From a virus, in IMG/VR virus record IMGVR_UViG_3300035698_008255, positions 1 to 24,071 of that record: 24,071 nt of DNA. One strand, 5' to 3'. A program made the position numbers and the translations under genes. How positions within the stretch are numbered: position 1 is the first letter of the stretch; each line of letters begins with the position of its first letter. Shown here in pieces: positions 1 through 22,892 of the stretch. The notes below the pieces were generated by a model. The model worked only from the letters and a program-made list of their open reading frames with translations. It made no database searches and was not told the DNA's origin.

Positions 1-108
1 ATACCAGAGTATCCGCTTATACCAGAGTATCCGCTTATACCAGAGTATCCGCTTATACCAGAGTATCCGCTTATACCAGAGTATCCGCTTATACCAGAGT
101 ATCCGCTA
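1..108. repeat. 18-bp perfect tandem repeat (5 exact copies plus one with a single change), continuing off the window
   Basis: The unit ATACCAGAGTATCCGCTT occurs five times without a mismatch from 1 to 90. A sixth copy (91-108) differs at the last base, and degenerate copies follow to about 162. The repeat starts at base 1, so the array continues to the left. On the minus strand each unit encodes SGYSGI, so gain or loss of units keeps the frame and changes rod length. The exact identity, including third codon positions, points to recent expansion or homogenisation. It could also mark an assembly problem. Confidence 0.95.
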
Positions 109-200
109 TAACCAGAGTATCCTGAATTTCCTGAATATCCGCTATATCCCGAATATCCATATCCCATAATTCCGCTTACAAAAGGTAGATTCAATGCCAT
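1..200 (-). CDS. Collagen-like (Gly-X-Y) tail fibre or adhesin protein, 3' end off window
   Basis: This gene starts at the ATG at 200-198 and runs off the left edge without a stop, so only about 66 codons are visible. After a short head (MALNLPFVSGIMG) the protein becomes pure Gly-X-Y: GYSGYSGYSGNSGYSG, then repeats of SGYSGI with Gly at every third position. Such triplets are typical of collagen-like segments in phage tail fibres, where they form trimeric rods. A run of GGGG lies about 9 bases before the ATG, and the start is 9 bases after the stop of the giant tail gene, so it is the next gene of the tail operon. Most likely it is a tail fibre or its attachment stalk. The receptor-binding part, if any, lies outside the window. 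The collagen-like repeat is certain from the sequence; the fibre role is inferred from context. Confidence 0.8.
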   Translation of the reverse strand, partial: MALNLPFVSGIMGYGYSGYSGYSGNSGYSGYSGYSGISGYSGISGYSGISGYSGISGYSGISGYSG

Positions 201-209
201 GGTATTCCC

Positions 210-3200
210 CTAACTTATATATGAATGAATTGGTCTAAGATAAAGCACTAAAGAATTTAACTGCGTCCTCATGCTCGTCTCTATATCAATGGCAACTCTT
301 ATCGGTTTACCATACCAATCATTTAACATATCATTATTGATTGTTTCAAGAAAATTCTTTGGTATTATCTGCAAGATGTTCGTTCCGATCCCCTGAGTTA
401 TAACCCCAGATAAAGGGTTGTAAGACTTGATAGATGGATTAAAATTGAACGTCTGTATAGCTATCTGAGCAGCAGAATCTAAAACTAAATTCTCCATTCT
501 GTCATCCGCAGTATAATAATTTGCTCCATCTATATCTTGTTCTTTCGGAATCACAACACACTTCAGAGTAACATACCCCCTCGTGTATAAATTCAGTATT
601 ACCTTTCTTATCCGCTTAATCATTGTCTCCAAATCACCTGTGTAGAACTTACTGAAATATCCTACCTTTACTGGAGCTTCTAATATTTTTGGGAATGTAG
701 TTGCTGTTGTTATCGTCGCAATGTCCGCAACATTAGCTGCATCTAATATATCATCTGTGTCTATATATAATACACTTACAGAGCGGGTGCTATCTCTTCG
801 ATCTGACCGTAGATTAGCATACCTCAATGCTGTATTAATATCATAAGGCGTTTCTATATAAATACCAGCCCAATACTTAGTCACATATTCTTCTGAAATT
901 TGATGTAATCCCTGATACTTAATCGGCAGAATATCTGCACTCCGCATCTCTCCAATGGAATTTGTAAAATACTTACGGATTAATTGTGATGGATCAGTGA
1001 TGATACGGTAATAATATGTTACATTTATAGCTAATGATGTTTGATGTATAAACTTAGTTGCATATCCTTTATCTAAACTAAGAACATATATATTCCCATA
1101 TAATGCTCTTTCATAATTTGCTGTAACTCCACTATTATCTCCTCGTAATACATGAGGATAAGTAGCAATATGCCCCGCTTCTGTTATTGAGGAATTATCT
1201 GTATGTAAAGTATATAACTTTGGTACATTAATGTAAATCTCGTTATAGTATTGGTTATATCCAGCAGAAGCATCTCGAATAGCTTGTTCCCCATTCGCTT
1301 TGATCGTCGCCACTACTTCTTCATTAAATTTCTTATCTATTGGGACTAATTCGTTATTATCATAATACATGATCCCTTTCCATGACAGGAAGAAGATTGT
1401 ATTATTGACATTTATGCAGCTATTAGGAGCAATGCACCCTATCTCTGGGGTGACTTCATCCGTTCTTGATATTGGCACTTCAGCTCCTTGTACAGCTACT
1501 CTGTGCATCGAAGTCTCTTTGAGTATCAATATATTACCGTATAGCGATTCAAGCCCCGTGATTTGCTTGCCGTCTCCACTACGGTATTCTGAGAAGCTCT
1601 CCAGCTTAATCCAGTCTGGTCGGAATGGTTCAGACCATCTAAGCCCAGATTCGTAAGTGTTAATTTCTGGCTCCATATCGGCGGCTAATAACTGCCGTCC
1701 AGTTGGTAAGTCTGCGTCTACGAATATTCCTTCGTCTTCATGCTCTATCGAACCGATGTAATAGAAATCGCCTGTATTACCAGTGCTACTTCCTGTTGCT
1801 CTATATACCTGTAATTCTTCGATATAGTCAGCGTATCCACTTGGCAGATAATATAGCACCGCTACTTTAGTCTCTGATCCTGTGATTTCCACTTTTATAT
1901 CATCGGCATCAGACGGAATGGTTTTCGCTACGGTATAGTTGCCAACAGTATCTTTATAGATGATTTTATACTTCACGTAAATCGTTTCTGTATATCCTCC
2001 TATATCGTCATCCTCGTCTTCATCTACTGTCATCACCTCAAAGTTAACATCTTCTATACCATCTACAACATTCCCTCTTGGACCTTGTACTTGATAAGTC
2101 TCTTCAAAGTTTGCATAATACATGCGTTCATTCACGGCAATATTAAACCGAGACTTCAGAGGATATATCAATCCTTCATAATCGTTGATGTTAACACCGA
2201 AATCAAGTTCATTATCTTTAATCTTATCAAAATAATAAATACCAGCGTAATGATCTACGTCGCCGCTTGGTATGAGTTCCCCTGGTGCTTCGCTATACGC
2301 ATCGCCTTCGCTGCCTTTATTATCTGAACCAGAAGACCTATCTATATCTATTGCTACTACTCTACCATAATCATTCGGCTGATAGCTATTATTATGTGAT
2401 GCTTTTGTGCGGAAGATATGTAGTCTCGTCGCTTTTGATGGCACATCATTAGTGGCTATCTTTATGCCCATTCGTGGTGCTTTATACAATACAGATGCAG
2501 GAAAGTATGCCGTTAGTTGTTCGTGAGCCGTCAGTCGTTCACCTTCTCCATAGACATGAATCTCTAAGTTACTCAGACTTTGGACTGAGTTGTTTTCGTA
2601 AGTAAATTCATCATAGCTTGCCACGACACCTTCTACCATGGTGGCTTCCCCCCGTATGGTTCTGCCAAGAACTCTATATCTATCGTATGGATCAGTGCCA
2701 CTTGCTATCCCAACAGTATTGTTAATGCGTCTATCTGGTGTACCATACTGATTTGTATGCCTTAGTGTGTTATTATCGAACCTTGTACCTACTCGCCCAG
2801 ATAGATCGGGAGGGACATACATATCTTGTTCATATCCATGATGTTGGTACAAATCAAATCTATCGCCATTTCCAGCTACTTGGACATGACATATCCCTGG
2901 TAATATCAACCTTGCCAGCGCATCGGCATCCATTCCTTCTTGTACTCTCGTCAGCCTATCTTGGTCTGAATCAACCGCTCTAAGTGGGGTATGAGTACGT
3001 TCATCATCTATCACCAAATCAGGGTCATTGCTTATGTCCTCTTCAATCGGGTTAATATTTACATATATACTCCCATATTCCCCATCTGGCATCCAATTAT
3101 ATCCTTTTATCCAAGCTGAGTATATACCTCCTGCTGGTGTTTTCTGATATATTGTATCGAATAGACCAGGCAAGACTAATGCCCGCTTAGTCCCAAATAG

Positions 3201-5363
3201 TGTACCATCGGTATCATCATTAATATATGAAAGTCGCAACTTACCATTGTCGTCAAACAATGAATTGTAAGTTCTCTTGTTGTCGTTGCTCTGGAATATA
3301 GGAACTTCAATCCTTATATGCCCATAACGTAACGCCGTGCCTAACGATACTCCTGGATAATTTGCAGGGTATTTCTCAGCTCTTGTCTGTGATACAAAAT
3401 GTGCCTCGACAGATTTCAAGAACTCAGCAAATCCTTCCGTCTGTTCGTAGTTAGGGATTTCAATAAATTCCCCAGCAAACCCAAGCATTGGCAATGTATT
3501 AGTTGTGAAAAATGCCGTTACGTAAACACCAAGATTACCTTTAACATTTATATCTGTATCATCCGTGATGTCTTGCAGGGTGGCTGCGTTGCCTATGCCG
3601 TACTTATGGTTCAGCTCTCCATACAACTCGTTTTTAATATCGTATATCAACTGTCCAATATCCGTTACGCTACCGTCAGGAAGCCACAACTTACCTGTAT
3701 CTAATACTCTATTTGGATAAGAACTACCTGTCAAATAACACATGTCATTATTCAGGTTATGTCCATCTGGCGTGCCAGTATCGTAATCCTGTACATCATA
3801 TAGCTTGTTAGGTCTTGAATACTCTGTATCATCTATGCCTGCATCTTGCACGGCGCTCCACATCATATCAGGACAATTCATTACTGGACTTGGAGCTGAC
3901 ATCGTGCCATCTTCGTATTCCCACATAAACCTATAACGCCAAACGGATAAAGGGACATATCTGTCTCTACCTGTCTTTGCGTTATACTCAACTATACGTG
4001 GGATACCTGGTGTTAATTTATCGAATAACCTATCTATATCTTTTAAATATTTATTAGCGGTTTTGGATTCTGCCCCAGATGATGGATAATACGTGACTCT
4101 ATGGTCTTCCCATATATACACATCAGATGCTCGCTCTATAATAAGCTCACCATCTTCATTGTAATACTCATCAGTTTCTAACTCCAGTTTACCCAGTACA
4201 TCACCATACTTAACGCCATCTTGTTCATTCGAGAATATATAGGCATTGCTACTATTCAGAATCTGCATTGACCCAACATTTTCTTCAGTGGTGGCATCTG
4301 GATGCTGTATTCCGATATCATCGTGCCAAAAGCTGGCGTGAACCATGAGTGTATCTATCTCTCCAGATTCGAGGTATGACTTAATTTGCTGGATAAATGG
4401 TTCGTTCTCGTCATCGTACTTATCCTTACTGGACTGATCCCCTATCCATTGTTCATTGGTTAGTTTATCGTCAAGATGATCCACGGAGCTAATGGAAAAT
4501 TCTTCTGGTAGTTTAAAGTTATACAATGCCATTCCATTCTCGACACCCTCATCTGGAGAGTTCTCCTTTTCGCTGGCATCTGTCTCTGGATCGCCTGTAC
4601 GATCATCAAGAATTACATTATCTATCTCGAATGTATCTAAACAATTAGGAGTTAACATAAATCCGTGAGTATCATCGTCTTCTATCTTTGCGTCGCTTAG
4701 TATCATGTCTCCATTAATCCTATCGGATATACATAAACGATGACGATACTGAGTCATATCAACATAGTGCTTAATCCATGTATCTCTGGCTACTGACATA
4801 TCATCTGGTAAATCTCGATTAGGAGAGTATAGCACTTGGGCTGGGTGGGTTACATCGTTGTCGTTCTGCGGATAATAGTTCCTCGACGTTTTATACATCG
4901 TTTCACCTTCTATCACACACATAAGTAAAGCATTGGCAAACCGACCAGATATTGGGCTGAATAGGTAGTATTCATAATAATCTCTTCCTGTTGTCCCTGC
5001 ATCTGGATTAACAGAGGCATCATCATATTCACCCATGCGAATGACATATACCATGAATCTATCGCTATCAGGTGCTATCCACTTTTCTTCTAATACTATT
5101 TCGCCTATACCGATGATCCCAAGGCATCTCATATACGCCTCAGCACCATTTAGGTCTTCCGTAGTACATGCAGCAGCTGGAGTACTATATTGACCAATAA
5201 ACAATCCGAAGATACTACCATTACGAGATACCAACTTCCCAACTTTCTCCATTCGGAAATTATATATATCTCTCGCTTCACCATCATCTATCAATTCAGG
5301 TGCAACGTTGGAGTTCAATCCTCCGAACTTGTTTATTCGTATGTCTTTGTAACTCATGCCCAT
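210..5363 (-). CDS. Giant tail nozzle / DNA-stabilisation-like protein (1717 aa)
   Basis: This is the largest gene of the window. The N-terminus (KFGGLN at 12-17, then APELI, a DIYNFR stretch and GKLVSRNG at about 42-49) fits large phage 'stabilisation' or tail nozzle proteins. Around residues 1260-1340 lies a stretch of the kind seen in such proteins (LYGNILILKETSMHRV, then IGCIAPNSCINVNNTIFFLS and GIMYYDNN), resembling P22 gp10-type tail proteins. P22 gp10 is under 500 residues, so this protein is far larger. Its middle is acidic, rich in Asp, Tyr and Thr, and may hold inserted domains. No transmembrane segment or signal peptide is seen. The listed ATG at 5363 has no clear SD. An ATG at 5357 forms an ATGA overlap with the stop of the upstream gene and may be the true start by translational coupling. 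A tail-tube or nozzle role is inferred from position after the adaptor genes and before the fibre gene. Confidence 0.65.
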   Translation of the reverse strand: MGMSYKDIRINKFGGLNSNVAPELIDDGEARDIYNFRMEKVGKLVSRNGSIFGLFIGQYSTPAAACTTEDLNGAEAYMRCLGIIGIGEIVLEEKWIAPDSDRFMVYVIRMGEYDDASVNPDAGTTGRDYYEYYLFSPISGRFANALLMCVIEGETMYKTSRNYYPQNDNDVTHPAQVLYSPNRDLPDDMSVARDTWIKHYVDMTQYRHRLCISDRINGDMILSDAKIEDDDTHGFMLTPNCLDTFEIDNVILDDRTGDPETDASEKENSPDEGVENGMALYNFKLPEEFSISSVDHLDDKLTNEQWIGDQSSKDKYDDENEPFIQQIKSYLESGEIDTLMVHASFWHDDIGIQHPDATTEENVGSMQILNSSNAYIFSNEQDGVKYGDVLGKLELETDEYYNEDGELIIERASDVYIWEDHRVTYYPSSGAESKTANKYLKDIDRLFDKLTPGIPRIVEYNAKTGRDRYVPLSVWRYRFMWEYEDGTMSAPSPVMNCPDMMWSAVQDAGIDDTEYSRPNKLYDVQDYDTGTPDGHNLNNDMCYLTGSSYPNRVLDTGKLWLPDGSVTDIGQLIYDIKNELYGELNHKYGIGNAATLQDITDDTDINVKGNLGVYVTAFFTTNTLPMLGFAGEFIEIPNYEQTEGFAEFLKSVEAHFVSQTRAEKYPANYPGVSLGTALRYGHIRIEVPIFQSNDNKRTYNSLFDDNGKLRLSYINDDTDGTLFGTKRALVLPGLFDTIYQKTPAGGIYSAWIKGYNWMPDGEYGSIYVNINPIEEDISNDPDLVIDDERTHTPLRAVDSDQDRLTRVQEGMDADALARLILPGICHVQVAGNGDRFDLYQHHGYEQDMYVPPDLSGRVGTRFDNNTLRHTNQYGTPDRRINNTVGIASGTDPYDRYRVLGRTIRGEATMVEGVVASYDEFTYENNSVQSLSNLEIHVYGEGERLTAHEQLTAYFPASVLYKAPRMGIKIATNDVPSKATRLHIFRTKASHNNSYQPNDYGRVVAIDIDRSSGSDNKGSEGDAYSEAPGELIPSGDVDHYAGIYYFDKIKDNELDFGVNINDYEGLIYPLKSRFNIAVNERMYYANFEETYQVQGPRGNVVDGIEDVNFEVMTVDEDEDDDIGGYTETIYVKYKIIYKDTVGNYTVAKTIPSDADDIKVEITGSETKVAVLYYLPSGYADYIEELQVYRATGSSTGNTGDFYYIGSIEHEDEGIFVDADLPTGRQLLAADMEPEINTYESGLRWSEPFRPDWIKLESFSEYRSGDGKQITGLESLYGNILILKETSMHRVAVQGAEVPISRTDEVTPEIGCIAPNSCINVNNTIFFLSWKGIMYYDNNELVPIDKKFNEEVVATIKANGEQAIRDASAGYNQYYNEIYINVPKLYTLHTDNSSITEAGHIATYPHVLRGDNSGVTANYERALYGNIYVLSLDKGYATKFIHQTSLAINVTYYYRIITDPSQLIRKYFTNSIGEMRSADILPIKYQGLHQISEEYVTKYWAGIYIETPYDINTALRYANLRSDRRDSTRSVSVLYIDTDDILDAANVADIATITTATTFPKILEAPVKVGYFSKFYTGDLETMIKRIRKVILNLYTRGYVTLKCVVIPKEQDIDGANYYTADDRMENLVLDSAAQIAIQTFNFNPSIKSYNPLSGVITQGIGTNILQIIPKNFLETINNDMLNDWYGKPIRVAIDIETSMRTQLNSLVLYLRPIHSYIS

Positions 5364-6079
5364 GGAGCCATTATATATGACACAACACCTTCATTAAAGA
5401 GAACTGGTTTGTTCACCTTCGCTCTTGCTATCTCTGCATTAAACTGATCTTCGTACACCCTGTAATTCGCATTGCCTTGACTTTTGATATACACAGATAT
5501 AGCGTAGGCAAGAAATGCCTCCTCATATTCATCTAAAGATGGATTAATCTGTGCCGATATAAAGTTAGCTTCAAAATTCACTTCGTGTGGATACCACGTT
5601 GCCCATTGATAGCTACCCGACGATATGGCATGCAGGTCAGGATGGTAATATACTTGTATGATGTCTTTCTCGTATGCGGGATAAAATAGGAATCGTCCTT
5701 GCCAGATGCTCCATAGCGTGCTACGGTCATTAACTACTGTCCCCCATAATTTCATATCGTAATTAGTCGGGACTTCCTGTATTTTTACTTCCCAGTGATC
5801 TGCGACCCTATTCATTTGTTTTGGATGTTGCATTAGCATTGGATAGCCGTCTTCGTCTCTAACCTCCAATATATCCAGCATGTCTTGAGGTGCTAAGAAG
5901 ATACCTCCTATTGCTCCGATATTGACAATGCTTTCAACATATAAAGTTTCTCTTTGGAATAGTTGTATACCACGGGTAAGTTTTCGCATGAAAGAATACT
6001 TCGTAACATCGAGCTTTTCAGTATATATTTTCACAGCATCTTGGAAATCGCTGTACAGTTCTGAAAATGTAGATGGCAT
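5354..6079 (-). CDS. Head-to-tail adaptor-like protein, fifth of a tandem set (241 aa)
   Basis: This protein has the architecture shared by the five genes 5354-8913: an N-terminal helical stretch (about 1-48), a beta-rich middle opened by a hydrophobic strand after Pro (APQDMLDILEV, about 63-73), and a C-terminal helix pair with an acidic-aromatic lead (DEYEEAFLAYAISVY, about 183-197). This pattern resembles connector or adaptor rings of the P22 gp4 / SPP1 gp15 type, which form dodecameric rings below the portal. The C-terminus (FNEGVVSYIMAPWA) is hydrophobic and differs from the other four. Tryptophan is unusually frequent in the middle. The gene ends inside the start of the giant tail gene, which suggests it is the ring nearest the nozzle. 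Family membership is judged by eye only. Confidence 0.5.
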   Translation of the reverse strand: MPSTFSELYSDFQDAVKIYTEKLDVTKYSFMRKLTRGIQLFQRETLYVESIVNIGAIGGIFLAPQDMLDILEVRDEDGYPMLMQHPKQMNRVADHWEVKIQEVPTNYDMKLWGTVVNDRSTLWSIWQGRFLFYPAYEKDIIQVYYHPDLHAISSGSYQWATWYPHEVNFEANFISAQINPSLDEYEEAFLAYAISVYIKSQGNANYRVYEDQFNAEIARAKVNKPVLFNEGVVSYIMAPWA

Positions 6080-6081
6080 AA

Positions 6082-6813
6082 CTAAATTCCTTTCTTACTT
6101 GGCAATAATACGGAAGCCCTTAATTGTTCCTTATCGTATTCCGCTTTTAAGCCCTTTATAATAAAGTCAATCTCAAGTTCAATACTTTGCCTTGCTACTT
6201 CGTCCTTGAGTATCTGTAAGCAATACAAGACGGCGTATAAAACTACTATTTCGTCAAACTCGGCGGGTATAACCGTTTCGTTGTCGTCTGTTCCAGAGAT
6301 ATTTAACAACTCTAAATCGTCTATTGCCGCTATATAATATACAATAATTCTTTCAATATTCCCAGATAAATTATAGTTTCCGTAACTTATTTCTAAAATA
6401 TATCTTGTCAATAATCCAGAGATACCGTAATACGTAGTATAGATCGGAAATTGCAATGTTGGACCGTTAAATGCATGCTCTCTTGCTGCCTCTATCTCTC
6501 TGTTAGCTACCCGTCTCATCTCGGAAATGATTGTATCACCTCCATCTGTATCGTTATATTCAAAGTAAGCGACATACACATCTAAGCAATCTTCAGGTAA
6601 AAAGAACCTCGTAAGTCCTTCAGTTGTAACGCTTTCAGGATTAATAGCAAGTTTATTACCATATCTCTCTGGGGTCATCACCATTGTTGTATGCTGGACC
6701 TTACGTCTTGCTCTGTTAATGCAAGTCATAACCAAAGAATCATCAATGGCTTGCATAACATCATTTCTCAGTAATCGTAGTTTTACATCATCTATATAAT
6801 CTCTTGCTGTCAT
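6082..6813 (-). CDS. Head-to-tail adaptor-like protein, fourth of a tandem set (243 aa)
   Basis: The N-terminal helices (ARDYIDDVKLRLL, then VMTCINRARRKVQ at about 28-40) match the 'I-N-x-A-x-R' helix of adaptor proteins. A strand after Pro follows (LPEDCLDVYVAYFEY, about 72-86). The C-terminal helix has the recurrent lead PAEFDEIVVLYAVLY (about 183-197), followed by a charged helix to the end. The ATG at 6813 overlaps the stop of the next gene upstream by four bases (ATGA), so translation is probably coupled. The role is inferred as a ring subunit between portal and tail. The exact layer in the stack cannot be read from sequence. Confidence 0.5.
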   Translation of the reverse strand: MTARDYIDDVKLRLLRNDVMQAIDDSLVMTCINRARRKVQHTTMVMTPERYGNKLAINPESVTTEGLTRFFLPEDCLDVYVAYFEYNDTDGGDTIISEMRRVANREIEAAREHAFNGPTLQFPIYTTYYGISGLLTRYILEISYGNYNLSGNIERIIVYYIAAIDDLELLNISGTDDNETVIPAEFDEIVVLYAVLYCLQILKDEVARQSIELEIDFIIKGLKAEYDKEQLRASVLLPSKKGI

Positions 6814-7550
6814 AGCTTCTTAGATGCCTCCCCTTTCTCTGGTGGTGGTGCTGCAAGCGGAACAACTGGTTCGATGAACGAATCCAATTCCCTACTTTCC
6901 ATCTTTTGCTTAGCAATATATAACTCAAATATTTTAGACTTCTCTTGTGCTAATCGTTTCTGTACTTCAGTAATCTGGGCATGAATGGTTGTCCGAGCAA
7001 ATATCCTTTGCATAATAGTATATATCACAATATCTATATATTCTTCTGGTATTGGGACAACATCTGTATCTGCTGTGAGTTCTGCTGGCATTGAATAATA
7101 GTCTAATATGCCAGTTAGGTCCGTGGGGTGAGTATATATCCTAAACTCTATTGGGACTGATGTTGTGTCTGCCTGTCCCCAAAAGGTATAGATACCAGCA
7201 TGATCATAGGAATGGTTGAAGTCATGGATATTGATACTGTTGGTTATATTAAAGTATTCCTTAATATCAGCATATCTTGCTTCGTCATATACGCCTTCTG
7301 ATCGTTCCACCAGCAATCTTGACCTTCTGACAAACTCACGAGGTATAGCACTCTCATTGGCTATTGTCATTCTCCGTAGGAACGCTTCCCCCTCATACGG
7401 GATAACCAACGAAGCAATCTCTCGTATGCTATGATTTGCATAGCGAACAAGGGTATCCCAGTCTAAATTGATTGCACTACGATGATCGCCTAATCTAATG
7501 ATTACTTCATCTATAATACCTTTCAATGTTATTTTGGCGTATTGTATCAT
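6810..7550 (-). CDS. Head-to-tail adaptor-like protein, third of a tandem set (246 aa)
   Basis: The protein opens with helices GIIDEVIIRLGD and WDTLVRYANHSIREIASLV (about 31-49), the acidic-aromatic lead plus N-H-x-x-R helix usual in connector proteins. A strand region after Pro follows (IPREFVRRSRLLVER, about 69-83). A C-terminal helix begins with IPEEYIDIVIYTIMQRIF (about 167-184) and leads into a charged helix. The last about 25 residues are a Pro-rich tail (PLAAPPPEKGEASKKL) absent from its neighbours, which may be a flexible arm. The gene overlaps both neighbours, by four bases downstream and one base upstream (TAATG). A ring-forming role in the neck is inferred from this layout and from the four similar neighbours. 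Confidence 0.5.
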   Translation of the reverse strand: MIQYAKITLKGIIDEVIIRLGDHRSAINLDWDTLVRYANHSIREIASLVIPYEGEAFLRRMTIANESAIPREFVRRSRLLVERSEGVYDEARYADIKEYFNITNSINIHDFNHSYDHAGIYTFWGQADTTSVPIEFRIYTHPTDLTGILDYYSMPAELTADTDVVPIPEEYIDIVIYTIMQRIFARTTIHAQITEVQKRLAQEKSKIFELYIAKQKMESRELDSFIEPVVPLAAPPPEKGEASKKL

Positions 7551-8206
7551 TACTCATCCAGCTTATCAAGTGTTAATTTCTGATTTTGGTATGCGGCTAA
7601 TCCTCTCTCCATCTCTCCTACGTCAATATTGTTAGCTAATTCGGCTGCCATAAACACTACCTCATGGTGATATTCACTTGGCAGAGACAAAGCTACGTTA
7701 TTAGCGGGGGTTGTCGCATCGTATACGAATACATCGGGTTCGATAACCCATACTAAATTTGCTACCGTATCTGTATCTGATAGCCATATATATGATTCCA
7801 ATTCACTCGTTACGGTACTATATACCTTCGTCACGGTATAGTAAGCAACTCGTGGGAACCTGTCTCCTGGGTTTGTCCCTGGTGGTACATAGTTATAAAA
7901 CAATTCTGGTGGTACATATCTTGCACTAACAGAATATTCATCATCAGCCCCACTCGCTTTCATCCGAACTGCTCGTGGATATAACAGTGGATTAGTTCCC
8001 GCTGTAATGATCGAGCCATCAGTGAATCCAAGTGAAGTTCTATATAAAGGTCTCAAAGCTCGTTCATCCATTTTTATATAATATTCATGGACTTTTCTGA
8101 GCTGTGCCTCGTTAATAATCGCTGCTATTTCCGCTGTTGTTGGAAACCAGTCTCGTGAATCATCTAACAGCATTCTAACGGCTCTCATTGTTTCAATGGT
8201 TGTCAT
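7550..8206 (-). CDS. Head-to-tail adaptor-like protein, second of a tandem set (218 aa)
   Basis: This is the shortest member of the set. Helices TIETMRAVRMLLDD and TTAEIAAIINEAQLRKVHEYY (about 23-43) give the familiar 'I-N-x-A-Q' pattern. A beta-rich centre begins near LLYPRAVRMKAS and contains several Tyr-rich strands. The C-terminal helix starts LPSEYHHEVVFMAAELANN (about 175-193), very close in form to the lead of known phage adaptor proteins. The ATG at 8206 overlaps the upstream stop by four bases. Of the five genes, this one and 8203-8913 look most like classical head-completion adaptors. The assignment rests on pattern, without an alignment search. Confidence 0.55.
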   Translation of the reverse strand: MTTIETMRAVRMLLDDSRDWFPTTAEIAAIINEAQLRKVHEYYIKMDERALRPLYRTSLGFTDGSIITAGTNPLLYPRAVRMKASGADDEYSVSARYVPPELFYNYVPPGTNPGDRFPRVAYYTVTKVYSTVTSELESYIWLSDTDTVANLVWVIEPDVFVYDATTPANNVALSLPSEYHHEVVFMAAELANNIDVGEMERGLAAYQNQKLTLDKLDE

Positions 8207-8913
8207 ATCTGTCTCCCAGTGTTTTGAGCATTAGTATATACTGGCGGTTGTTGATTCATTGTATTGTCTAGAATTTCAGCTACGTCTTTACCAGTATATC
8301 TAACATATACATCAGATTCCAGTATCTTACGCATCTTCTCATAGAGTTGTTCTTTGAAATCTCGTTGTGTCTGTACTTCTTTCATCCCACAGGAGAATGC
8401 GGCGTGTTTCGCTATCACATCATTATACACAAAATCCTCGAAATCCCTAATGGCATAATCTGCACTTAGAGTATCAGAGGTAATAGAAGCAGGTGATTTG
8501 TAATAATATAGCACTCCATTGGTTGAAGCTCTTGCCTCCATGAATGTGCATGTATTCTGCAAGATGATTGCAGCTCTGTGGTCGGTATAGAAGAAGCCAT
8601 ATCCAGTGCCACCTAAATACACTTGAGCCATTTTTAGAGTTCCCTCTGTTGCTCCTACCCTTGCACTTAGATAATGCATATAGGAGGTAAGGGAAGTTAA
8701 GGTGATGGCACCAGAAGATAGCCCACTCGATCTAATTAGTCCATTAAGCATGTATTCTTTTTTGGACTGCAAGCAGTAATTGACATAAATATCTTGGGAG
8801 ATATTGAGGTAAAGCTCGATTTCTTCATCACTCCAAAATTCCCCCTTGATACTGTCAGAGACAACATCTTGTAGATATCGTCTCACTCTTGTTATCAGTC
8901 CATTTGCTCGCAT
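8203..8913 (-). CDS. Head-to-tail adaptor-like protein, first of a tandem set (236 aa)
   Basis: The N-terminus has the clearest adaptor signature of the set: LITRVRRYLQDVVSD, then FWSDEEIELYLNISQDIYVNYC (about 27-48), a 'W-S/T-D-E-E-I-x-x-Y-L-N' helix common in head-tail connector proteins. The middle is beta-rich (about 60-150). The C-terminal helix IRDFEDFVYNDVIAKHAAFS (about 155-174) continues into a charged helix and a polar tail ending in QNTGRQI. It is the first adaptor gene transcribed after the head genes, so it may be the ring that binds the portal. The gene starts three bases after the stop of the Met/Gln/Pro-rich protein gene. Confidence 0.55.
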   Translation of the reverse strand: MRANGLITRVRRYLQDVVSDSIKGEFWSDEEIELYLNISQDIYVNYCLQSKKEYMLNGLIRSSGLSSGAITLTSLTSYMHYLSARVGATEGTLKMAQVYLGGTGYGFFYTDHRAAIILQNTCTFMEARASTNGVLYYYKSPASITSDTLSADYAIRDFEDFVYNDVIAKHAAFSCGMKEVQTQRDFKEQLYEKMRKILESDVYVRYTGKDVAEILDNTMNQQPPVYTNAQNTGRQI

Positions 8914-8916
8914 GCT

Positions 8917-9363
8917 TTACCCCATTGGTGGTAGTTGTCCCATTGATATACCTGGAGATGGAGGAGGTCCCATAGGCATCCCCTGTCCCATTGGTGGTCC
9001 TTGATCCATAGGCATTCCTTGTCCCATCGGCATTCCTTGTTCCATACCCATTCCTTGGTCTGCTGGGAAACCTGGTATTGGAGCATTAGGTAATGGAGGA
9101 GGTTGCATCATCATCTGTATCTGTTGGTCCAGCATCATTTGCGCTCTCTGTACTTCCGCCAATATGTCTTTTAATTGGTTAGTCTTCTCATTAAGCATCA
9201 TGCTTTGGATCATGTTCATCTTAGATGTCTGCTCGTTCTCTTTTCGCTGCCCCTCTGTGTGTGCTGCTTCCTTACCAAGCTGGAAATACTGGCTTTCCTG
9301 TTCGGCTGATTTTGCTTTCTTCTTGCTATGCGGTTTAGCTCCACTCTCTTTATAGTTATCCAT
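8917..9363 (-). CDS. Small head-region protein: coiled coil plus Met/Gly/Gln/Pro-rich tail (148 aa)
   Basis: No family is recognised. Residues 1-45 are highly charged and Lys/Glu-rich. Residues about 46-88 look like an amphipathic helix or coiled coil, with many Met, Gln and Leu. Residues 89-148 are low-complexity Pro, Met, Gly and Gln, including repeats of the form QGMPMGQGMPMDQGPPMG. There is no Cys and no membrane segment. An SD-like TAGGA lies before the ATG at 9363. The gene sits between the capsid accessory genes and the adaptor genes, so a minor virion protein or assembly chaperone is possible. The repeat tail resembles that of disordered, sticky assembly factors, but no function should be assigned from that. 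Confidence 0.75.
   Translation of the reverse strand: MDNYKESGAKPHSKKKAKSAEQESQYFQLGKEAAHTEGQRKENEQTSKMNMIQSMMLNEKTNQLKDILAEVQRAQMMLDQQIQMMMQPPPLPNAPIPGFPADQGMGMEQGMPMGQGMPMDQGPPMGQGMPMGPPPSPGISMGQLPPMG
8930..9063. repeat. Degenerate repeat encoding the Met/Gly/Gln/Pro-rich tail
   Basis: Short imperfect copies built on CCCATTGG, CCCATAGG or CCTTGTCCCAT recur through this stretch. They encode alternating Met-Gly, Gln-Gly and Pro-Met pairs on the minus strand. Unlike the left-edge repeat, copies differ at many third codon positions, so the array looks older and kept by selection or slow slippage. Recombination between copies would often keep the frame. Confidence 0.6.
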
Positions 9364-10477: not shown

Positions 10478-11770
10478 TTAAGTTCTTAAAAGTGCGTGTG
10501 ATTGCTCTAAGTGCCATTTAATTGTTCCTTGCCATTCGATCATGTATTTAATATCACGCTCATTGTTGTTAGAATACAACCTTGATTCGTAATCTTTCAC
10601 AATACACCATTCTGCTTGAACAGGGTCCAATACAAATAACCAGTTCTCTGCGTCGGTATCTTGGCGTAATGTTTCGTTTCTTACCATAGTAAGAGCGTAA
10701 CCGCCAGGAATTACGTAAGTATCTAAATCTAAAGTAACATTGCCTACGAGCTTCATTCCTGAAGTTCTGCGATATTCTCTGAAATAGTCATTGAAGTTAA
10801 TTAACAAACGACCACCTGCAAAGCCCAGTTTCTTTTTCTGTCCTGAAGGGTTATACCTATATGCTTGCTCGTGCAAGAAGTTAACAATCAGCATTTCAAA
10901 GTCTGTTGATGCATTTGGATCGTAATACGAAACGTTGGTTTCTATGGCATGGAATAAACCACGCATGTGCCTCATTGGTCTGGTAGGATCAGTAAAATCA
11001 ACAGATCGTTCAGACCATATTGAGTTATAATCCACTGACTTTTTGAAGTTTCGTATTGTTTCTTGTTGCTGCAAATCAAAGTCTGCCATTGAACCGTTGG
11101 TCTTGATCCACTTCTTCTGATCTTCTGTTATCGTAATAACAGCTTCTTTATGCTCTACATAGTTGTAGTCATATAAGACGTCAGTTTGATGTGATTCTGC
11201 CTCAATGTCCTGACTTTCCTTGATTGTCCGTCCAGTGTATATAACATCACTTACAGTGAAGTCTAACAATGGTGCGGCTTCTACGTTCATTACTAGCACT
11301 GATCCATCAGAAGTTCTGGTTGTTGAATTTCCAGTGACTGCCGCTGGGAATGTCAAATCAGAACCACTTACTTGTAGTGCTGCTCGTGGTGTTGCCACCA
11401 CCATTACTGTTTGTCCTGTTTCAAGAATAGTAAATTTGTCCTGTGGTGCATAATACATCACGTCATTGGTTAATGGTCTAGACGCTTGGTCTAAAGTCAT
11501 TAAGGCAAAACGTGAATATCCTGCATCCACTGTACCACTCATAGTAACTGAGGAACAATAATCCCAATGGTCAAAAGCATGCAACTGAGTTGACTGTACT
11601 TTATGACTATGAGGTTTCTTTCCTCTGCCTATGGATTTAGATATTGCTTGAAAAGGAGCTGCTTCTGGGTCGAGAACTCTCACTTTTTCGTCAATGTCCG
11701 CTACTAACGATAACGGATCAACGGTTACTGATGTTCTCGTTCCAGGTCTATGCCTACTATCATAAGCCAT
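10478..11770 (-). CDS. Major capsid protein, SU10/HK97-fold-like (430 aa)
   Basis: It lies just after the scaffold gene and has a very strong SD (AAGGAGAT), as expected for the most abundant virion protein. The N-terminal segment (VDPLSLVADIDEKVRVLDPEAAPFQAI, about 17-43) is of the kind found in SU10-type major head proteins, where residues near the start set up the HK97-like arm. A central helical stretch (TEDQKKWIKTNG then FDLQQQETIRNFKKSVDYNSIW, about 213-252) fits the long spine helix region. PMRHMRGLFHAIETN follows. No protease gene or obvious cleavage site is visible nearby. Capsid identity is strong from gene order; the SU10 assignment is by motif memory and is less certain. Confidence 0.8.
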   Translation of the reverse strand: MAYDSRHRPGTRTSVTVDPLSLVADIDEKVRVLDPEAAPFQAISKSIGRGKKPHSHKVQSTQLHAFDHWDYCSSVTMSGTVDAGYSRFALMTLDQASRPLTNDVMYYAPQDKFTILETGQTVMVVATPRAALQVSGSDLTFPAAVTGNSTTRTSDGSVLVMNVEAAPLLDFTVSDVIYTGRTIKESQDIEAESHQTDVLYDYNYVEHKEAVITITEDQKKWIKTNGSMADFDLQQQETIRNFKKSVDYNSIWSERSVDFTDPTRPMRHMRGLFHAIETNVSYYDPNASTDFEMLIVNFLHEQAYRYNPSGQKKKLGFAGGRLLINFNDYFREYRRTSGMKLVGNVTLDLDTYVIPGGYALTMVRNETLRQDTDAENWLFVLDPVQAEWCIVKDYESRLYSNNNERDIKYMIEWQGTIKWHLEQSHALLRT

Positions 11771-12824: not shown

Positions 12825-14888
12825 CTATAATAATGATGCAATAATAGACTCAGAAGATAAGCGTTGCATTTCAGGATGCATATTGGCTTCCTGTGCTATT
12901 TGCTCCTGTTCCGTTTGATTCACTTCTTGAAGCATTTGTTCTCTCATCCTTTCAGTCTCATTTAATTTTTGTTCTATCTTAGATTGTTGTTTATGAATTT
13001 CCTGTTCTTTGTCTTTAAGTTCGTCTCCACGTTCAGCTTGTTCTTTAAGCTGTTTCTTGCGCAAGGAATCTATTACTGATTTCTGTAATTTTTCTTCTTC
13101 TTGCATCTTAGCTTTTTGTTTAATATAATCTTTATAATGTTCTAAGCCGTCCATAATCTTCTTTTTGGTGTTCTTCGATATATCTGAATATTCGAGCATG
13201 AATTGAGCAACTATTTCAGGTGGTATGCCTGGTATTGTCATAAACAATTCTTTCAGCTGCTGGAATTTCATTTCTCTGATTGTTTCAGATTTAGAGATTT
13301 CATCTACAACTATATCATATTTTATTTCTCTGATTGTGTCCAACACCCCATCATCTATCTTCATGTATTTAATGTCTTCTTCGCCACCTATTATGCGGAG
13401 TTGTTGTCGTGGGTCCATATAATTTTTCATCCACCACACCATTTTATATGTTACATTTTTTCTCCATTGACGTAAGTGATCGAATAATGGTAGTCTTGCC
13501 AAACCACCTTGTTCGGCTCTCGCCATTACAGCTTTACCTGATTCTGCTGCATTCTCTTGGAAACCTAATACATTCCTTCCACCAGCATAATCATTCATTC
13601 TATTGATGCCAAATTGGATACCTTGGAATAATTCTGGTCTCACTGGTACATTTGGTTTCAAGTCAATAGCACTATGATTCAGGACTGGTAATACTGGAGA
13701 TATATTTTTCATCTCTCTTCGTACATCCTCAATATCTTTACCTCTCGGTAAGAGGGATTCCATTACTGTCATAGGACTTTTAGCTGACGAACCAACTGCA
13801 TAATCCCACATGGAGAAGAATCTATTCACTGCTATTTGCGGGCTGACAAGATTATCAATAAACCCCCAATAATCTCCATCTATAAAATATGCGAAGTTCA
13901 GATCAAATGGGAAGAAAGGAATATCCAGTTTCGTGGAGTATAACAACACATCAGAAACTACAATACTTTGCTCAATGCATGGTATTTCAATGCCTTGCAC
14001 TTCTATTTTCAATGTACCATCATCGTAATATAAACCGATGCCATCGCTAATATACTGCTTTATTAATCCATTTCCAAATGCAACAGCATCATTTTCTTTA
14101 TCAAACTCAAATTTATTTCCTTGCACGTCATCTACTACAACATATTGTGTCTTCTTAAATGTCTCATAATACTCTATCACTTCTATCATTTCTCGTGATA
14201 TATTTGAGCTTGGAACTCCTCTGCGTTCTAAATCTTCCTGCCGTTTAGTCTTAACTCTATTGACTATCCCAGATACGCTTGAGATACCTTCTGCCCCTGG
14301 GACATCATAGATTATTTCTGTATATCCTTTGTATATCTCATCTGCGGTTGCACGAGACATGTTCATTACTCTTGCCATCCATCTGGCATCAGACAAATCT
14401 GATTTTTTTGAATCTCCATCCCAAAACAATTCATTAATCGGAACTTTCTCGATCTTTGGATAGCCATATAAGACATCATCAGCTGCCCATGAGATTACAG
14501 ATGCCCCCATTCCTCCTATTACAGCATCAAGGAATACATCTGTTTCGATGCTATCTGTGTCGTTAACCTGATTTGCCCATTTGACTAAGAACGTAATAAT
14601 CTCTGCTGCTTGCTGATCTTCTTGCTCTCTACCTATGACATGCACATCAAGTCTTGTTTGTGTCTGCATGCCAATTAGGTGGTCAACTTTGTGCTGTATC
14701 TCGTTAAAGACATAGGGCTGTCTGAATTGCATTCGATGCATCTCTTCCTCTTCAGGTGTCCAATGCCTCCCTGCGTAGTAATCCACATTCCTTAGATGTG
14801 TTTCATACTTCTCATTATACACATCCTTGACAGATTCAATGTCATTAAGAATGTACGCTACCTTATCATCTGACTTAGTGTGTCTCAT
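12825..14888 (-). CDS. Portal protein, P22-like (687 aa)
   Basis: This is the dodecameric DNA gateway of the head. The N-terminus carries the P22-like portal pattern: helix, then YAGRHWTPEEEEMHRMQFRQ at about 48-67, VFNEIQHKVDHLIGMQTQTR at about 70-89, and a wing region with IPINELFWDGDSKKSDLSDARW-like sequence near 155-178. The segment FFPFDLNFAYFIDGDYWGF (about 321-339) and the following QIAVNRFFSMWDYAVGS lead into the stem and crown. Residues about 590-680 are a long Gln/Glu/Lys-rich coiled coil, longer than usual charged tails and possibly equivalent to the P22 barrel. Length is close to that of P22 portal (725). The start codon overlaps the terminase stop by one base (TAATG). Confidence 0.88.
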   Translation of the reverse strand: MRHTKSDDKVAYILNDIESVKDVYNEKYETHLRNVDYYAGRHWTPEEEEMHRMQFRQPYVFNEIQHKVDHLIGMQTQTRLDVHVIGREQEDQQAAEIITFLVKWANQVNDTDSIETDVFLDAVIGGMGASVISWAADDVLYGYPKIEKVPINELFWDGDSKKSDLSDARWMARVMNMSRATADEIYKGYTEIIYDVPGAEGISSVSGIVNRVKTKRQEDLERRGVPSSNISREMIEVIEYYETFKKTQYVVVDDVQGNKFEFDKENDAVAFGNGLIKQYISDGIGLYYDDGTLKIEVQGIEIPCIEQSIVVSDVLLYSTKLDIPFFPFDLNFAYFIDGDYWGFIDNLVSPQIAVNRFFSMWDYAVGSSAKSPMTVMESLLPRGKDIEDVRREMKNISPVLPVLNHSAIDLKPNVPVRPELFQGIQFGINRMNDYAGGRNVLGFQENAAESGKAVMARAEQGGLARLPLFDHLRQWRKNVTYKMVWWMKNYMDPRQQLRIIGGEEDIKYMKIDDGVLDTIREIKYDIVVDEISKSETIREMKFQQLKELFMTIPGIPPEIVAQFMLEYSDISKNTKKKIMDGLEHYKDYIKQKAKMQEEEKLQKSVIDSLRKKQLKEQAERGDELKDKEQEIHKQQSKIEQKLNETERMREQMLQEVNQTEQEQIAQEANMHPEMQRLSSESIIASLL

Positions 14889-16366
14889 TAATATACCACA
14901 AATGTATTATATCTATTGAATTTTTTACCATTTATATCTATTATCCCATCGTCTTCGTATTTCTTCTCTGTACTATATGTTGTATCTAATAGCACCTCTA
15001 GATCAGGTCCAGAGAACTCCTCATGGTTAGACTCTATCCTATTGTCTCGGAGTGAAGTTATAGGATAGCCAAATGCACTGGCAACGATATATCGCAAAGC
15101 GTCTATTGCATCATCTGGTCCAGTGGTATCTAAATCTTCTTGGTTTGTTATATTTCGCTTGTTGTACTTATTTAGCGGTAGAGTCTCTATGAGGGTTCTA
15201 CAATTTTCAAATACCTGCAATAATGGGAACTCTCGACGTTTATCCCAATGTAACCATTGCTTCAGTATTCTCCATCCTTCTATTCTTTTGTTGTTAGCTT
15301 TTAGCAATGGTAAACCACCAACGGTAAATATGTTTTCTGATGTCTGATCGTTTTCGTTGGTCCTACCAGACATACCCCACATAGAAGGATCAGCATATAT
15401 CTCTCTTACATAATCCACCCTATCTCCAAGCATACCACCAATACCTCTGACGTACTGTTCCAATACACCTGAATCAACGTATTCATCTATTATGTACAAA
15501 CGACCTGTATCTGGGTCCTGTGCAGATAGCAGGAATACAGTTGGATGAGTATCGCTAAACCCTAAATCTAATCCCCCGACATGTCTCCAGTGAGCAGGTA
15601 TCTCGAATGGCTTCACGACATGTTTCTCTTCATTCCATTCCGAGAAGTACTGTCCTGTAAATACATTCCAATCACCTTCCAGCCATGCTCTTCGGCGATC
15701 TTCACTCATTCCCTTTAGGTTATCTATATAGTCTTCGTCTATATATGGGTTATCATATACACTGGCAGATATAAATACATACTTCTTCTTATTCTTTATG
15801 GCATTCTTGTTCCAGTACTTATAATCTGGTGTAATGAAGTGAGTTTTAAACCAGACATCTGAGAATCCACCAGGATTACCTGTCATAAGGAATGTTGATG
15901 TGAAATTCTTAATGCCTGCATTACGCAATGAACCAATAAGCATTTCCAACTGATCTGGATAGAACTGATTTGCTTCATCAACAATCATGTACTGATATTC
16001 CAGTCCTTGGACCTTGATGACATCAGTGTCTCTCTCGGCTGCTCTAAAAATGATTTTCGATTTATTATTAAAATATGCTGTTCGATCTTGTCTTCGGTAG
16101 GTATATCCAAATACTTCTTCTGGATATGTTTCAAGTAGTTTTTGTATAAATAATTCATTTAGTTCGCTATAATGCCGACGCATTATCACAACTCTAATTC
16201 CTGGGAATTGAGCGGCGACTAATACTCCAGAGGATAATGCGAAATGGCTTTTCCCCCCGCCTCTTGCTCCTCCATAAAAGATATACTTCCCTTTACCAAC
16301 TTGCTCTAATGCTTGTTGCTGTTTAGGATTTCTTTTATAGCTTATGTAGTCCGATATTTTATCCAT
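14888..16366 (-). CDS. terL: Terminase large subunit (492 aa)
   Basis: This is the ATPase-nuclease motor that packages DNA. Numbered from the ATG at 16366, the Walker A motif GGARGGGKS is at about 32-40, and Walker B with the catalytic Glu (YMIVDEAN) is at about 126-133. Motif III-like FLMTGNPGG is at about 159-167. The RNase H-like nuclease starts with GGLDLGFSDTHPT (Asp267), continues with EIYADPS (Asp326) and ends with DDAIDALRY (Asp418 to Asp422). All key acidic residues are present, so the enzyme looks intact. A longer frame reaches a TTG at 16378, but the ATG gives a natural eight-base overlap with the upstream gene and is preferred. Confidence 0.95.
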   Translation of the reverse strand: MDKISDYISYKRNPKQQQALEQVGKGKYIFYGGARGGGKSHFALSSGVLVAAQFPGIRVVIMRRHYSELNELFIQKLLETYPEEVFGYTYRRQDRTAYFNNKSKIIFRAAERDTDVIKVQGLEYQYMIVDEANQFYPDQLEMLIGSLRNAGIKNFTSTFLMTGNPGGFSDVWFKTHFITPDYKYWNKNAIKNKKKYVFISASVYDNPYIDEDYIDNLKGMSEDRRRAWLEGDWNVFTGQYFSEWNEEKHVVKPFEIPAHWRHVGGLDLGFSDTHPTVFLLSAQDPDTGRLYIIDEYVDSGVLEQYVRGIGGMLGDRVDYVREIYADPSMWGMSGRTNENDQTSENIFTVGGLPLLKANNKRIEGWRILKQWLHWDKRREFPLLQVFENCRTLIETLPLNKYNKRNITNQEDLDTTGPDDAIDALRYIVASAFGYPITSLRDNRIESNHEEFSGPDLEVLLDTTYSTEKKYEDDGIIDINGKKFNRYNTFVVY

Positions 16367-16652
16367 CGTTGTATCCAAGAACTAAATTTGGGTCATCTAT
16401 CTCCAGCTTTCTATCGCTTGCTGTATTCATTCTCCTCTGTTCGATCAACCTTGAATGTGCAATAAGCGAATTATATACTTTTATCTGTTCCTCGAAACTT
16501 CCCTCTTGCATAATTGAATATGCTTTTTTCATACTATCGTACAGTAAAGCGTCCAATGCTTCCTGTTGTAATTCAACTGATGGGATGGTTAAAGCGTTAT
16601 CTTGCACTAAACCACAATTTTCATGTTCTAATATTTTGCCAAGTGATCCCAT
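16359..16652 (-). CDS. Possible terminase small subunit (97 aa)
   Basis: This is a small, mostly helical protein encoded directly before and overlapping the large terminase gene, the usual position of a small terminase. Residues about 22-75 (SVELQQEALDALLYDSMKKAYSI and EEQIKVYNSLIAHSRLIEQRR) look like two or three amphipathic helices suited to oligomerisation. No classical helix-turn-helix is obvious, so DNA recognition is not demonstrated and the name is by position. No SD is seen before the ATG at 16652: the preceding bases are AT-rich and contain putative promoter elements. It is the first gene of the structural operon. Confidence 0.5.
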   Translation of the reverse strand: MGSLGKILEHENCGLVQDNALTIPSVELQQEALDALLYDSMKKAYSIMQEGSFEEQIKVYNSLIAHSRLIEQRRMNTASDRKLEIDDPNLVLGYNDG

Positions 16653-16691: not shown

Positions 16692-16713
16692 AATATATTA
16701 TGAATTATCTTAA
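16684..16713 (-). promoter_or_regulatory. Putative sigma70-type promoter for the packaging/structural operon
   Basis: On the minus strand TTAAGA (16713-16708) is followed after 18 bases by a perfect TATAAT (16689-16684). A second TATAAT lies at 16680-16675. The elements point at the possible small terminase gene and overlap the plus-strand gene start. The surrounding 47-bp gap is almost all A and T, so chance matches are easy and activity is unproven. Confidence 0.4.
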
Positions 16714-17335
16714 AAACCTAATAAAAGCCGAACAAGACGCATATTATGCTAAGTTAATCTCACTGATTAATGGTTCTGCTAGCTTAGACGAGTATATTGA
16801 TAAAGGAGTGCAAAACAATGCAAGAGAGTTTTACCATTCTCTCCGAGACTTTATCCGTTATTCCAAGGACTTCATGTTCTACATGAGAATGGAATTATGT
16901 GAAACTGCTATGCGGTTTGTTTCCCCAATGGATGACAAGCTGATATGTGGAAGTATAGCACCTTCTCTCTTCTGTGGTCCGTTCCAATTTTCTTATATCA
17001 ATACAAGATTTGAAAAGGATATGATAGTGCTATATCTGGAGTTAGCTAAGTTAGAGGTATATCCAAAGTTCCTATACGGAACACACCCTAATCCAATGAC
17101 TTACTCATCTGGAATGTTTACTTCTCATCATAGGATTGGATCAGCGATAGACTTTCATAGATTTACTGATGTGGAATCTGAATGGGCGATGGAGATCATA
17201 AGGAAGAATAACTTAATGTTGAGTATTACCAATATGGTACGATATACCCATATACATCGAAAGTCATCTCGGGATTATCAATCTAAGGCATATAGCTGGA
17301 GGCATTGTTATGATATGGACAATAATTTATCGTAA
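16700..17335 (+). CDS. M15-like zinc peptidase, candidate endolysin (211 aa)
   Basis: This is the only convincing gene on the plus strand. Residues 142-151 read SHHRIGSAID, which fits the M15 peptidase pattern S-x-H-x-x-G-x-A-x-D, with His144 and Asp151 as the first two zinc ligands. A later THIH (183-186) can supply the third. M15 enzymes (D-Ala-D-Ala carboxypeptidases and L-Ala-D-Glu endopeptidases) cut peptidoglycan peptides and serve as phage endolysins. The first 80 residues are helical and unrecognised and could be a binding domain. There is no signal peptide, so a holin would be needed. No SD is visible. The 3' end overlaps the nuclease gene on the opposite strand by 28 bases. The motif is seen; lytic function is inferred. 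Confidence 0.55.
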   Translation: MNYLKNLIKAEQDAYYAKLISLINGSASLDEYIDKGVQNNAREFYHSLRDFIRYSKDFMFYMRMELCETAMRFVSPMDDKLICGSIAPSLFCGPFQFSYINTRFEKDMIVLYLELAKLEVYPKFLYGTHPNPMTYSSGMFTSHHRIGSAIDFHRFTDVESEWAMEIIRKNNLMLSITNMVRYTHIHRKSSRDYQSKAYSWRHCYDMDNNLS

Positions 17336-17649
17336 AGAACTTTGATTTGTTTATAGGTATCATCTTTCATCATGTCTTGGGGTGTATATCGCAATATATG
17401 CCATAACTCCTCATTAGCTAAATTATATTTTTCCATGTCGTTAAGAAATCCAAAACCACGATTATGCCTACCACTAATCCACACACCACCTTCTATCTCT
17501 ATGGCAAGTTTAACTTCAGGATAAGCATAATCGAATCGGAATCTTCGTTTACCGTGAAACCTATGTTCTGGTTTTGGGTCGGGTAGTCCCGCTTGCTTCA
17601 GCAGGAGCAAAGTTAATTTATTTGTGTTCTTACTTTTATCGCTTTTCAC
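17308..17649 (-). CDS. PD-(D/E)XK nuclease, VSR/DUF559-like (113 aa)
   Basis: The core reads RFRFDYAYPEVKLAIEIEGG (36-55), giving Asp40 and the Glu51-x-Glu53 pair of the PD-(D/E)XK fold. GRHNRGFGFLNDMEKYN (60-76) and WHILRYTP (83-90) follow, a layout common in small phage nucleases related to VSR and DUF559 proteins. Such enzymes act in recombination, branched-DNA resolution or host DNA breakdown. The N-terminal 20 residues are basic and helical. The start is a GTG at 17649, supported by AAAGG seven bases upstream. It overlaps the primase-helicase gene by 14 bases and the plus-strand gene tail to tail. It is the last gene of the replication block. Confidence 0.75.
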   Translation of the reverse strand: MKSDKSKNTNKLTLLLLKQAGLPDPKPEHRFHGKRRFRFDYAYPEVKLAIEIEGGVWISGRHNRGFGFLNDMEKYNLANEELWHILRYTPQDMMKDDTYKQIKVLYDKLLSIS

Positions 17650-20653: not shown

Positions 20654-21283
20654 TTATAATGAATAGTATGATTTCCACATGGTCGCCACATTCGGATCGT
20701 CCAGATGAGCTGCAATGACCAATGCTTTAAATAATATTAAGTAGTTAATGGCATCGCCATACTTCTCATCGAGCATTGTCCGTGGTGTCTCACTGGGATC
20801 ATCCTTGTCGTTAATGTCCTGAATCGAGACGAGATGTTTTAATAGCATCCCCAATAATGCATGGGCTGCCTGATAGAATAAAAACCTATCTCTATCTTCC
20901 TGATAATAGCGTGTATATAGTCTTGCTGCTGCAATAAAGTTATGTAATCTGTTATCCGCTTTCGCATATTCTGCCGCTTTTTCAACCAGCACTTTATTGA
21001 CAAATGAGTAGCAATACGCATATTCTTTTGGATCACACGTTATGGCTTGTTTGCTTTGTATGAGTTCATAAATCGTGTGGTCAATGAATGAATTAAGTTC
21101 ATGTATCTGACATTTGAATGCCAATACTGTATCAATTAAAGATAATGAACTTTTCACAATATCCTCGGTGATGGCTTTTGCGTTAATGGCAAGTCCACTA
21201 CGCACTGAGTGGATACTCGTTACATTGTTTAATGTCTGTTGGACAATAGTGTCCATCTGTTTATTGCTAATTGTTAAGGGCAT
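20654..21283 (-). CDS. Helical protein, possible DUF1599/Nmad1-like nucleotide-metabolism domain (209 aa)
   Basis: The C-terminal half has a pattern I associate with the nucleotide-modification-associated or MazG-like helical family in phages: VEKAAEYAKADNRLHNFIAAARLY (100-123), LLGMLLKHLVSIQDI (143-157) and LDEKYGDAINYLILFKALVIA (171-191). The Asp/Glu residues in the last helix could bind a metal. The N-terminal 95 residues are helical and unrecognised. A good SD (AAGGAGTT) precedes the ATG at 21283, and the start overlaps the DnaA-like gene by 17 bases. A role in nucleotide pools or base modification would follow if the family is right, but that is a guess by pattern. Confidence 0.5.
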   Translation of the reverse strand: MPLTISNKQMDTIVQQTLNNVTSIHSVRSGLAINAKAITEDIVKSSLSLIDTVLAFKCQIHELNSFIDHTIYELIQSKQAITCDPKEYAYCYSFVNKVLVEKAAEYAKADNRLHNFIAAARLYTRYYQEDRDRFLFYQAAHALLGMLLKHLVSIQDINDKDDPSETPRTMLDEKYGDAINYLILFKALVIAAHLDDPNVATMWKSYYSL

Positions 21284-22857: not shown

Positions 22858-22892
22858 AAGTCTCCTCTTATAATTTGTTTTAAATAATAATA

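Follow-up and report, generated by a model that had tools for sequence, protein, structure and literature searches.

A 24,071-base record of an uncultured virus (IMGVR_UViG_3300035698_008255; the whole stretch analyzed is called the window) carries its structural genes on the minus strand, among them five adjacent genes, g1 to g5, which probably encode a tail barrel in which five non-identical rings are stacked between a P22-like portal and a nozzle. The case was built from sequence profiles, predicted folds and analogy with solved phage tails; we infer from homology that the rings are 12-fold, that each gene makes one of them, that they stack and in which order they do so. The genes lie head to tail from position 8913 to 5354, with 218-246 codons each, and are flanked by a 148-amino-acid (aa) gene and by the gene of a 1717-aa nozzle candidate.

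8203 to 8913, minus strand: g1, candidate adaptor/ring paralogue 1, 236 aa; HHalign probability with g2, 95%.
7550 to 8206, minus strand: g2, candidate adaptor/ring paralogue 2, 218 aa; predicted model closest in fold to ring proteins 3-5 of crAss001.
6810 to 7550, minus strand: g3, candidate adaptor/ring paralogue 3, 246 aa; linked by HHalign to g4, g1, g2 and g5.
6082 to 6813, minus strand: g4, candidate adaptor/ring paralogue 4, 243 aa; HHalign probability with g3, 99.5%.
5354 to 6079, minus strand: g5, candidate adaptor/ring paralogue 5, 241 aa; predicted model nearest in fold to single-ring podophage adaptors.

An earlier reading of this DNA (hereafter the original prediction) had described five adjacent genes of this size with overlapping or nearly touching junctions, and the minus-strand open reading frames (ORFs) agreed with it: overlaps of 4 nt for g1/g2, 1 nt for g2/g3 and 4 nt for g3/g4, a gap of 2 nt between g4 and g5, and an overlap of 10 nt between g5 and the nozzle gene. 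The five C-terminal leads that it had quoted were all recovered, one per gene (g1, IRDFEDFVYN; g2, LPSEYHHEVV; g3, IPEEYIDIVI; g4, IPAEFDEIVV; g5, DEYEEAFLAY). The N-x-A-x-R or similar pattern claimed for the lead helices was found literally in g4 (INRARRKV), and the other four carry variants only (g2, INEAQLRK; g3, NHSIRE; g1, NISQDI; g5, LTRGIQ). Within the window, the five proteins share 9-17% mutual identity.

Family searches, profile comparison and phylogeny supported g1 to g5 as ancient paralogues of the podophage head-tail adaptor (SU10_adaptor/T7 gp11 fold). Pfam PF24175 (SU10_adaptor), the head-tail adaptor family of phage SU10, matched g3 of the window at 1.9e-10 (42 bits, above the Pfam cut-off of 27) and matched g4 (1.5e-4) and g1 (0.0013) below the cut-off, with g2 and g5 unmatched. 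When the orthologues from related phages were searched, matches were obtained for 5 of 13 in g1 (best 1.5e-7), one of 13 in g2 (5.4e-6), 5 of 13 in g4 (1e-5) and 4 of 12 in g5 (best 1.4e-11), so that all five families contain members matching SU10_adaptor. A search of whole records with PF24175 returned at most one adaptor-like match per phage record; it undercounts paralogues and was not used for counting.

HHalign comparison of the families, each aligned with 12-13 members, linked g3 with g4 (P value, 3e-22), g1 with g2 (2e-8), g2 with g3 (2e-5), g1 with g3 (3e-5), g3 with g5 (4e-5) and g2 with g4 (1.5e-4). Of forty control comparisons with eight unrelated families from these phages, none exceeded a probability of 1.2% or fell below a P value of 0.044, and reversed profiles gave nothing besides self-matches. 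With at most six sequences per family, an earlier comparison had detected the g3-g4 link only, and the remaining links emerged at 12-13 sequences. In a tree of 63 sequences, each gene formed its own clade with Shimodaira-Hasegawa-like approximate likelihood ratio test (SH-aLRT) values of 99, 96, 97, 91 and 100 for g1 to g5, and g1 and g2 were sisters (SH-aLRT 99), the deeper order not being resolved. The duplications therefore appear to predate the whole group.

Structures were predicted with AlphaFold2 (AF2) for g2 and g5, the two proteins of the window without a direct Pfam adaptor match, and both models are predicted to have the adaptor/ring fold, in which helices from the two ends of the chain surround a beta domain. 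Their common fold is informative because their identity is only about 9%. The g2 model (predicted local distance difference test score, pLDDT, 80.3) had as its best solved match chain 7qoj_E, the crAss001 ring protein 4/5 gp34 (VIA Z 13.1; 185 residues, 4.3 Å), and its Z values against ring and adaptor proteins ranged from 8.3 to 13.1. Foldseek against the PDB placed three crAss001 tail-barrel chains on top at E values of about 1e-6 (best 1.3e-6), followed at a distance of almost three orders of magnitude by crAss001 ring 2 (0.004) and then by the next match (0.04); among viral models, the top matches of g2 came mostly from uncultured 'cr' phages of the crAss-like series. The g5 model (pLDDT 80.4) was matched over nearly the whole protein by the adaptors of Pa223 (Z 13.6) and GP4 (Z 13.5) and by SU10 gp11 (Z 13.0; 2.8 Å over 190 residues), and matched crAss001 ring protein R3 (7qoj_D) at Z 9.6.

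Sequence searches of the PDB with g3 alone or with the g3 profile returned nothing relevant. HHalign revealed no significant orthology to the crAss ring proteins R1, R2 and R3, the tail-hub protein THA or SU10 gp11 (the highest probabilities were 36% for g3-SU10 and 6.9% for g2-R3), and no THA homologue was found among the five proteins. The g2-R3 alignment is full-length but weak (P value, 0.005), and, among the reference proteins, the g4 and g5 profiles scored ring 1 of phage DAC15 highest (E 0.006 and 0.013, respectively).

The array is conserved beyond the window. Relatives were gathered by scans for the capsid, portal, g4 and g5, with near-identical contigs counted once, and the array was present in 13 lineages with portal identity down to 37%: the window, nine viral contigs (L002, L003, L005, L006, L008, L013, L019, L020 and L022) and three contigs of metagenome-assembled genomes (L029-L031; phage contigs or prophages) from Bacteroidia, Ignavibacteria and Kapaibacteria genome bins. 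These bins are only suggestive of a host link of the group to the three taxa. Gene-by-gene profiles found one orthologue each in the same order across the lineages, contig ends aside: the L003 contig is cut between g4 and g5, with g5 at the other end (L017); g5 of L008 is cut short by the contig end; and the L006 contig ends within g4, so that its g5 is not covered. In L006, g2 and g3 are moreover separated by an additional gene of 385 aa (17471-18628). Complete copies keep the full-length adaptor layout at 199-277 aa. Record G002 (76.8 kb), nearly all of which was read, showed no sixth copy, and a single match there at 0.0028 was taken as chance since it fell in an unrelated-looking ORF. tblastn with g3, g5 and the major capsid protein found no relative in 50,697 described-phage records.

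The protein encoded directly downstream of g5 is supported by profile matches as the nozzle candidate.

210 to 5363, minus strand: nozzle candidate, 1717 aa; phrog_3287 at 6e-10, residues 1263-1383.

SU10 nozzle gp17 belongs to the same family (8e-116), and HHalign linked the same stretch at 56% to a 'putative nozzle' of Paracoccus phage KLEP18-1. The nozzle profile found nothing relevant among PDB sequences and did not match the crAss muzzle profile by sequence (HHalign 1.0%). Among relatives, a small gene between g5 and the nozzle gene varies, being by eye lytic-transglycosylase-like in L017 (4768-5340), lysozyme-like in L013 (19882-20529) and peptidase-like in L029 (18228-18863); the products are possibly interchangeable cell-wall enzymes that travel with the tail. 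Collagen-like GYSG/GFSG repeat proteins, likely fibres, are encoded immediately past the nozzle gene (window 3-200; L045 13636-15138 and 16597-17922). Downstream of nozzle and fibres, G002 has further internal-virion-like genes and the gene of a giant protein, probably a cargo of the ejection type (L045:1-5466 with L046:15798-17999; >2,000 aa provided that the two open frames are joined).

The remaining structural genes were identified upstream of the array.

14888 to 16378, minus strand: terminase large subunit; PF04466 1.7e-13, phrog_2 1.1e-38.
12825 to 14888, minus strand: portal protein; PF16510 (P22_portal) 1e-74, phrog_156 3.7e-83.
10478 to 11770, minus strand: major capsid protein; PF17236 (SU10_MCP) 6.9e-17.
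8917 to 9363, minus strand: 148-aa helical gene with a Gly-Met-Pro-rich tail, directly upstream of g1.

The minus-strand order is terminase large subunit, portal, a 342-aa acidic gene, major capsid protein, genes of 227, 128 and 148 aa, g1 to g5, the 1717-aa protein and the collagen-like GYSG protein, which is the podovirus order. The acidic gene, between portal and major capsid protein, occupies a scaffold-like place; the 148-aa gene, with relatives detected by profile in 9 of the 13 lineages, is by position probably a candidate structural protein. The closest relative, L002, has an 857-aa large terminase (4315-6888) with a probable intein, judged by eye, within the Walker A motif (GGARGGGK/S), and the window terminase is without it. 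On the plus strand, the sole long gene candidate, of 211 aa, lies between terminase and helicase (window 16700-17335) and had no Pfam or PHROG family match. The replication part of the window encodes a lone DnaA C-terminal DNA-binding domain (21267-21653; PF08299, 2.7e-8) and a GroES-like co-chaperonin (22486-22998; phrog_3188, 6e-10).

In the proposed arrangement, g1 to g5 would each supply a dodecamer, and these five unlike rings would be stacked from the P22-like portal to the nozzle, a hexamer of the 1717-aa protein. Duplication and divergence would give every ring its own upper and lower interface, and rings would therefore add in a fixed order, with tail length set by gene number. The need of different rings for different faces fits the old duplications, the deep divergence and the strict retention of all five genes. 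Such a barrel would make a short tail longer and, as has been proposed for phicrAss001, could have room for cargo proteins. g5, whose model is nearest to single-ring adaptors, is the likeliest of the five to form an end ring in contact with the portal or the nozzle. g4 and g5 lean weakly toward DAC15 ring 1, and g2 toward rings 3-5, which would agree with a predicted reversed ring order, as in the crAss gene order, where the muzzle-side rings come first and the portal-side ring adjoins the muzzle gene (PMC10172136). Duplication and divergence of one adaptor family, a P22-like portal and a very large nozzle, all proposed by the original prediction, were each supported by the profiles, and neither modeled protein showed an unrelated fold. 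The likeness to crAss ring proteins that it had named stood most directly for g2, and the multi-layer stack is its deduced part.

Several points weigh against the five-ring barrel. g5 is tied to the other four mainly via g3 (HHalign 70%) and the common Pfam family, the evidence for rings consists of genes, profiles and two monomer models, and any paralogue might share a ring with another, or serve as a collar to which fibres dock, instead of making a ring of its own. A peripheral fibre-docking collar made by some of the five, leaving a barrel of two to four layers, is considered unlikely. Something must dock the fibres, as the phicrAss001 tail needs a docking collar (PMC10172136) and no THA homologue is among the five, and the GYSG fibre candidates come after the nozzle gene; the SU10 adaptor bears a fibre dock domain itself (PMC9509320), and in crAss phages separate tail-hub proteins dock the fibres. 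However, all five proteins keep the full-length adaptor layout at similar size in complete copies, and the full-length matches of known structure to the adaptor-fold models all stem from portal, neck or tail-barrel complexes. It is very improbable that the rings are mixed, with two or more paralogues alternating around the circle to form six-fold or pseudo-twelve-fold layers that help fit a 12-fold portal to a 6-fold nozzle. The sister relation of g1 and g2 and the closeness of g3 to g4 are what partner pairs would show, and SU10 changes from 12-fold to 6-fold symmetry at the adaptor-nozzle step (PMC9509320), but both SU10 and crAss001 solve the mismatch by two conformations of one protein (PMC9509320, PMC10172136).

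The origin of the array is a separate matter, and a shared ancestor with the crassvirus rings would be compatible with five rings. Such an origin, which would make the group a sister lineage of Crassvirales and not a parallel expansion, is possible but doubtful. Crassviruses infect Bacteroidota, and portal relatives occur in the Bacteroidia, Ignavibacteria and Kapaibacteria bins; the fold of g2, its full-length alignment with R3 and the DAC15 preference of g4 and g5 point the same way. Conversely, the major capsid and nozzle proteins have no sequence-profile match to their crAss counterparts, the portals share only a distant family (crAss001 portal to phrog_156, 6e-9), and orthology of single rings was not significant. 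With the five-ring barrel as the preferred arrangement, the balance leans slightly toward a podovirus lineage outside Crassvirales that has evolved or kept a barrel of five all-different homologous rings, each paralogue recognizing only its neighbors and gene number, not a ruler protein, determining the length of the tail. The multi-ring barrel would then be a means of tail lengthening that recurs among short-tailed phages and no longer the peculiarity of one group, and the 13 lineages would offer natural versions for testing how homologous rings sort into a fixed order.

In the literature searched, a tail built as such a stack of rings has so far been described in the gut crAss-like phages only. 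Searches for other multi-ring podophages gave crAss papers alone, with subscription journals thinly covered and described phages not systematically surveyed, and no description of five adjacent all-different ring genes with an SU10-type capsid was found in the searchable literature. A similar array considered in Cellulophaga phage phi13:2 was not supported when four candidate proteins were checked. The phicrAss001 tail barrel, about 23 nm long, has five stacked dodecameric rings built from four paralogues of 15-31% identity (R1 gp43, R2 gp40, R3 gp35 and R4/R5 gp34; PDB 7qoj, 7qog), with rings 3-5 on the muzzle side of the barrel, for which a role in storing cargo and in reaching the outer membrane has been proposed (PMC10172136). 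The window resembles it in having several paralogous adaptor-fold proteins of about 225-240 aa and low mutual identity near a very large nozzle/muzzle gene, and the predicted folds of g2 and g5 resemble the crassvirus barrel chains 7qoj_E and 7qoj_D, respectively. In phicrAss001, however, the four ring genes are split by others and gp34 is used twice, whereas the window has five separate, directly adjacent genes; its major capsid protein is SU10_MCP, whereas that of crAss001 is phrog_11589. The window portal matches phrog_156, phrog_18470 and phrog_14911 and not phrog_6547, the crAss001 portal family, and the capsid and portal profiles of the group do not find crAss counterparts. By these profiles, the window virus is not a crassvirus.

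In SU10, a dodecamer of a single adaptor joins the 12-fold portal to the 6-fold nozzle gp17 (PMC9509320). The window shares with SU10 the adaptor Pfam family, the nozzle PHROG and the capsid Pfam family named after it, and the predicted g5 structure fits gp11. SU10 differs in its single adaptor gene in the structure, with one PF24175 match, and in its nozzle of 1005 aa compared with 1717 aa in the window. Burkholderia phage BcepIL02, the portal of which is similar to that of the window, carries consecutive genes of the SU10_adaptor family.

L043:18074-18721: BcepIL02 gp53, phrog_399; SU10_adaptor family, 2.8e-32.
L043:18718-19347: BcepIL02 gp54, phrog_437; SU10_adaptor family, 3.5e-7.

Both are annotated only as virion-associated or hypothetical, and they possibly form a two-ring neck. 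BcepIL02 has two such genes only, and small adaptor arrays, as judged by family matches, exist outside crassviruses. More than one adaptor gene is thus already known beyond that group, and five adjacent, all-different adaptor genes together with an SU10-type capsid appear to constitute a new variant.

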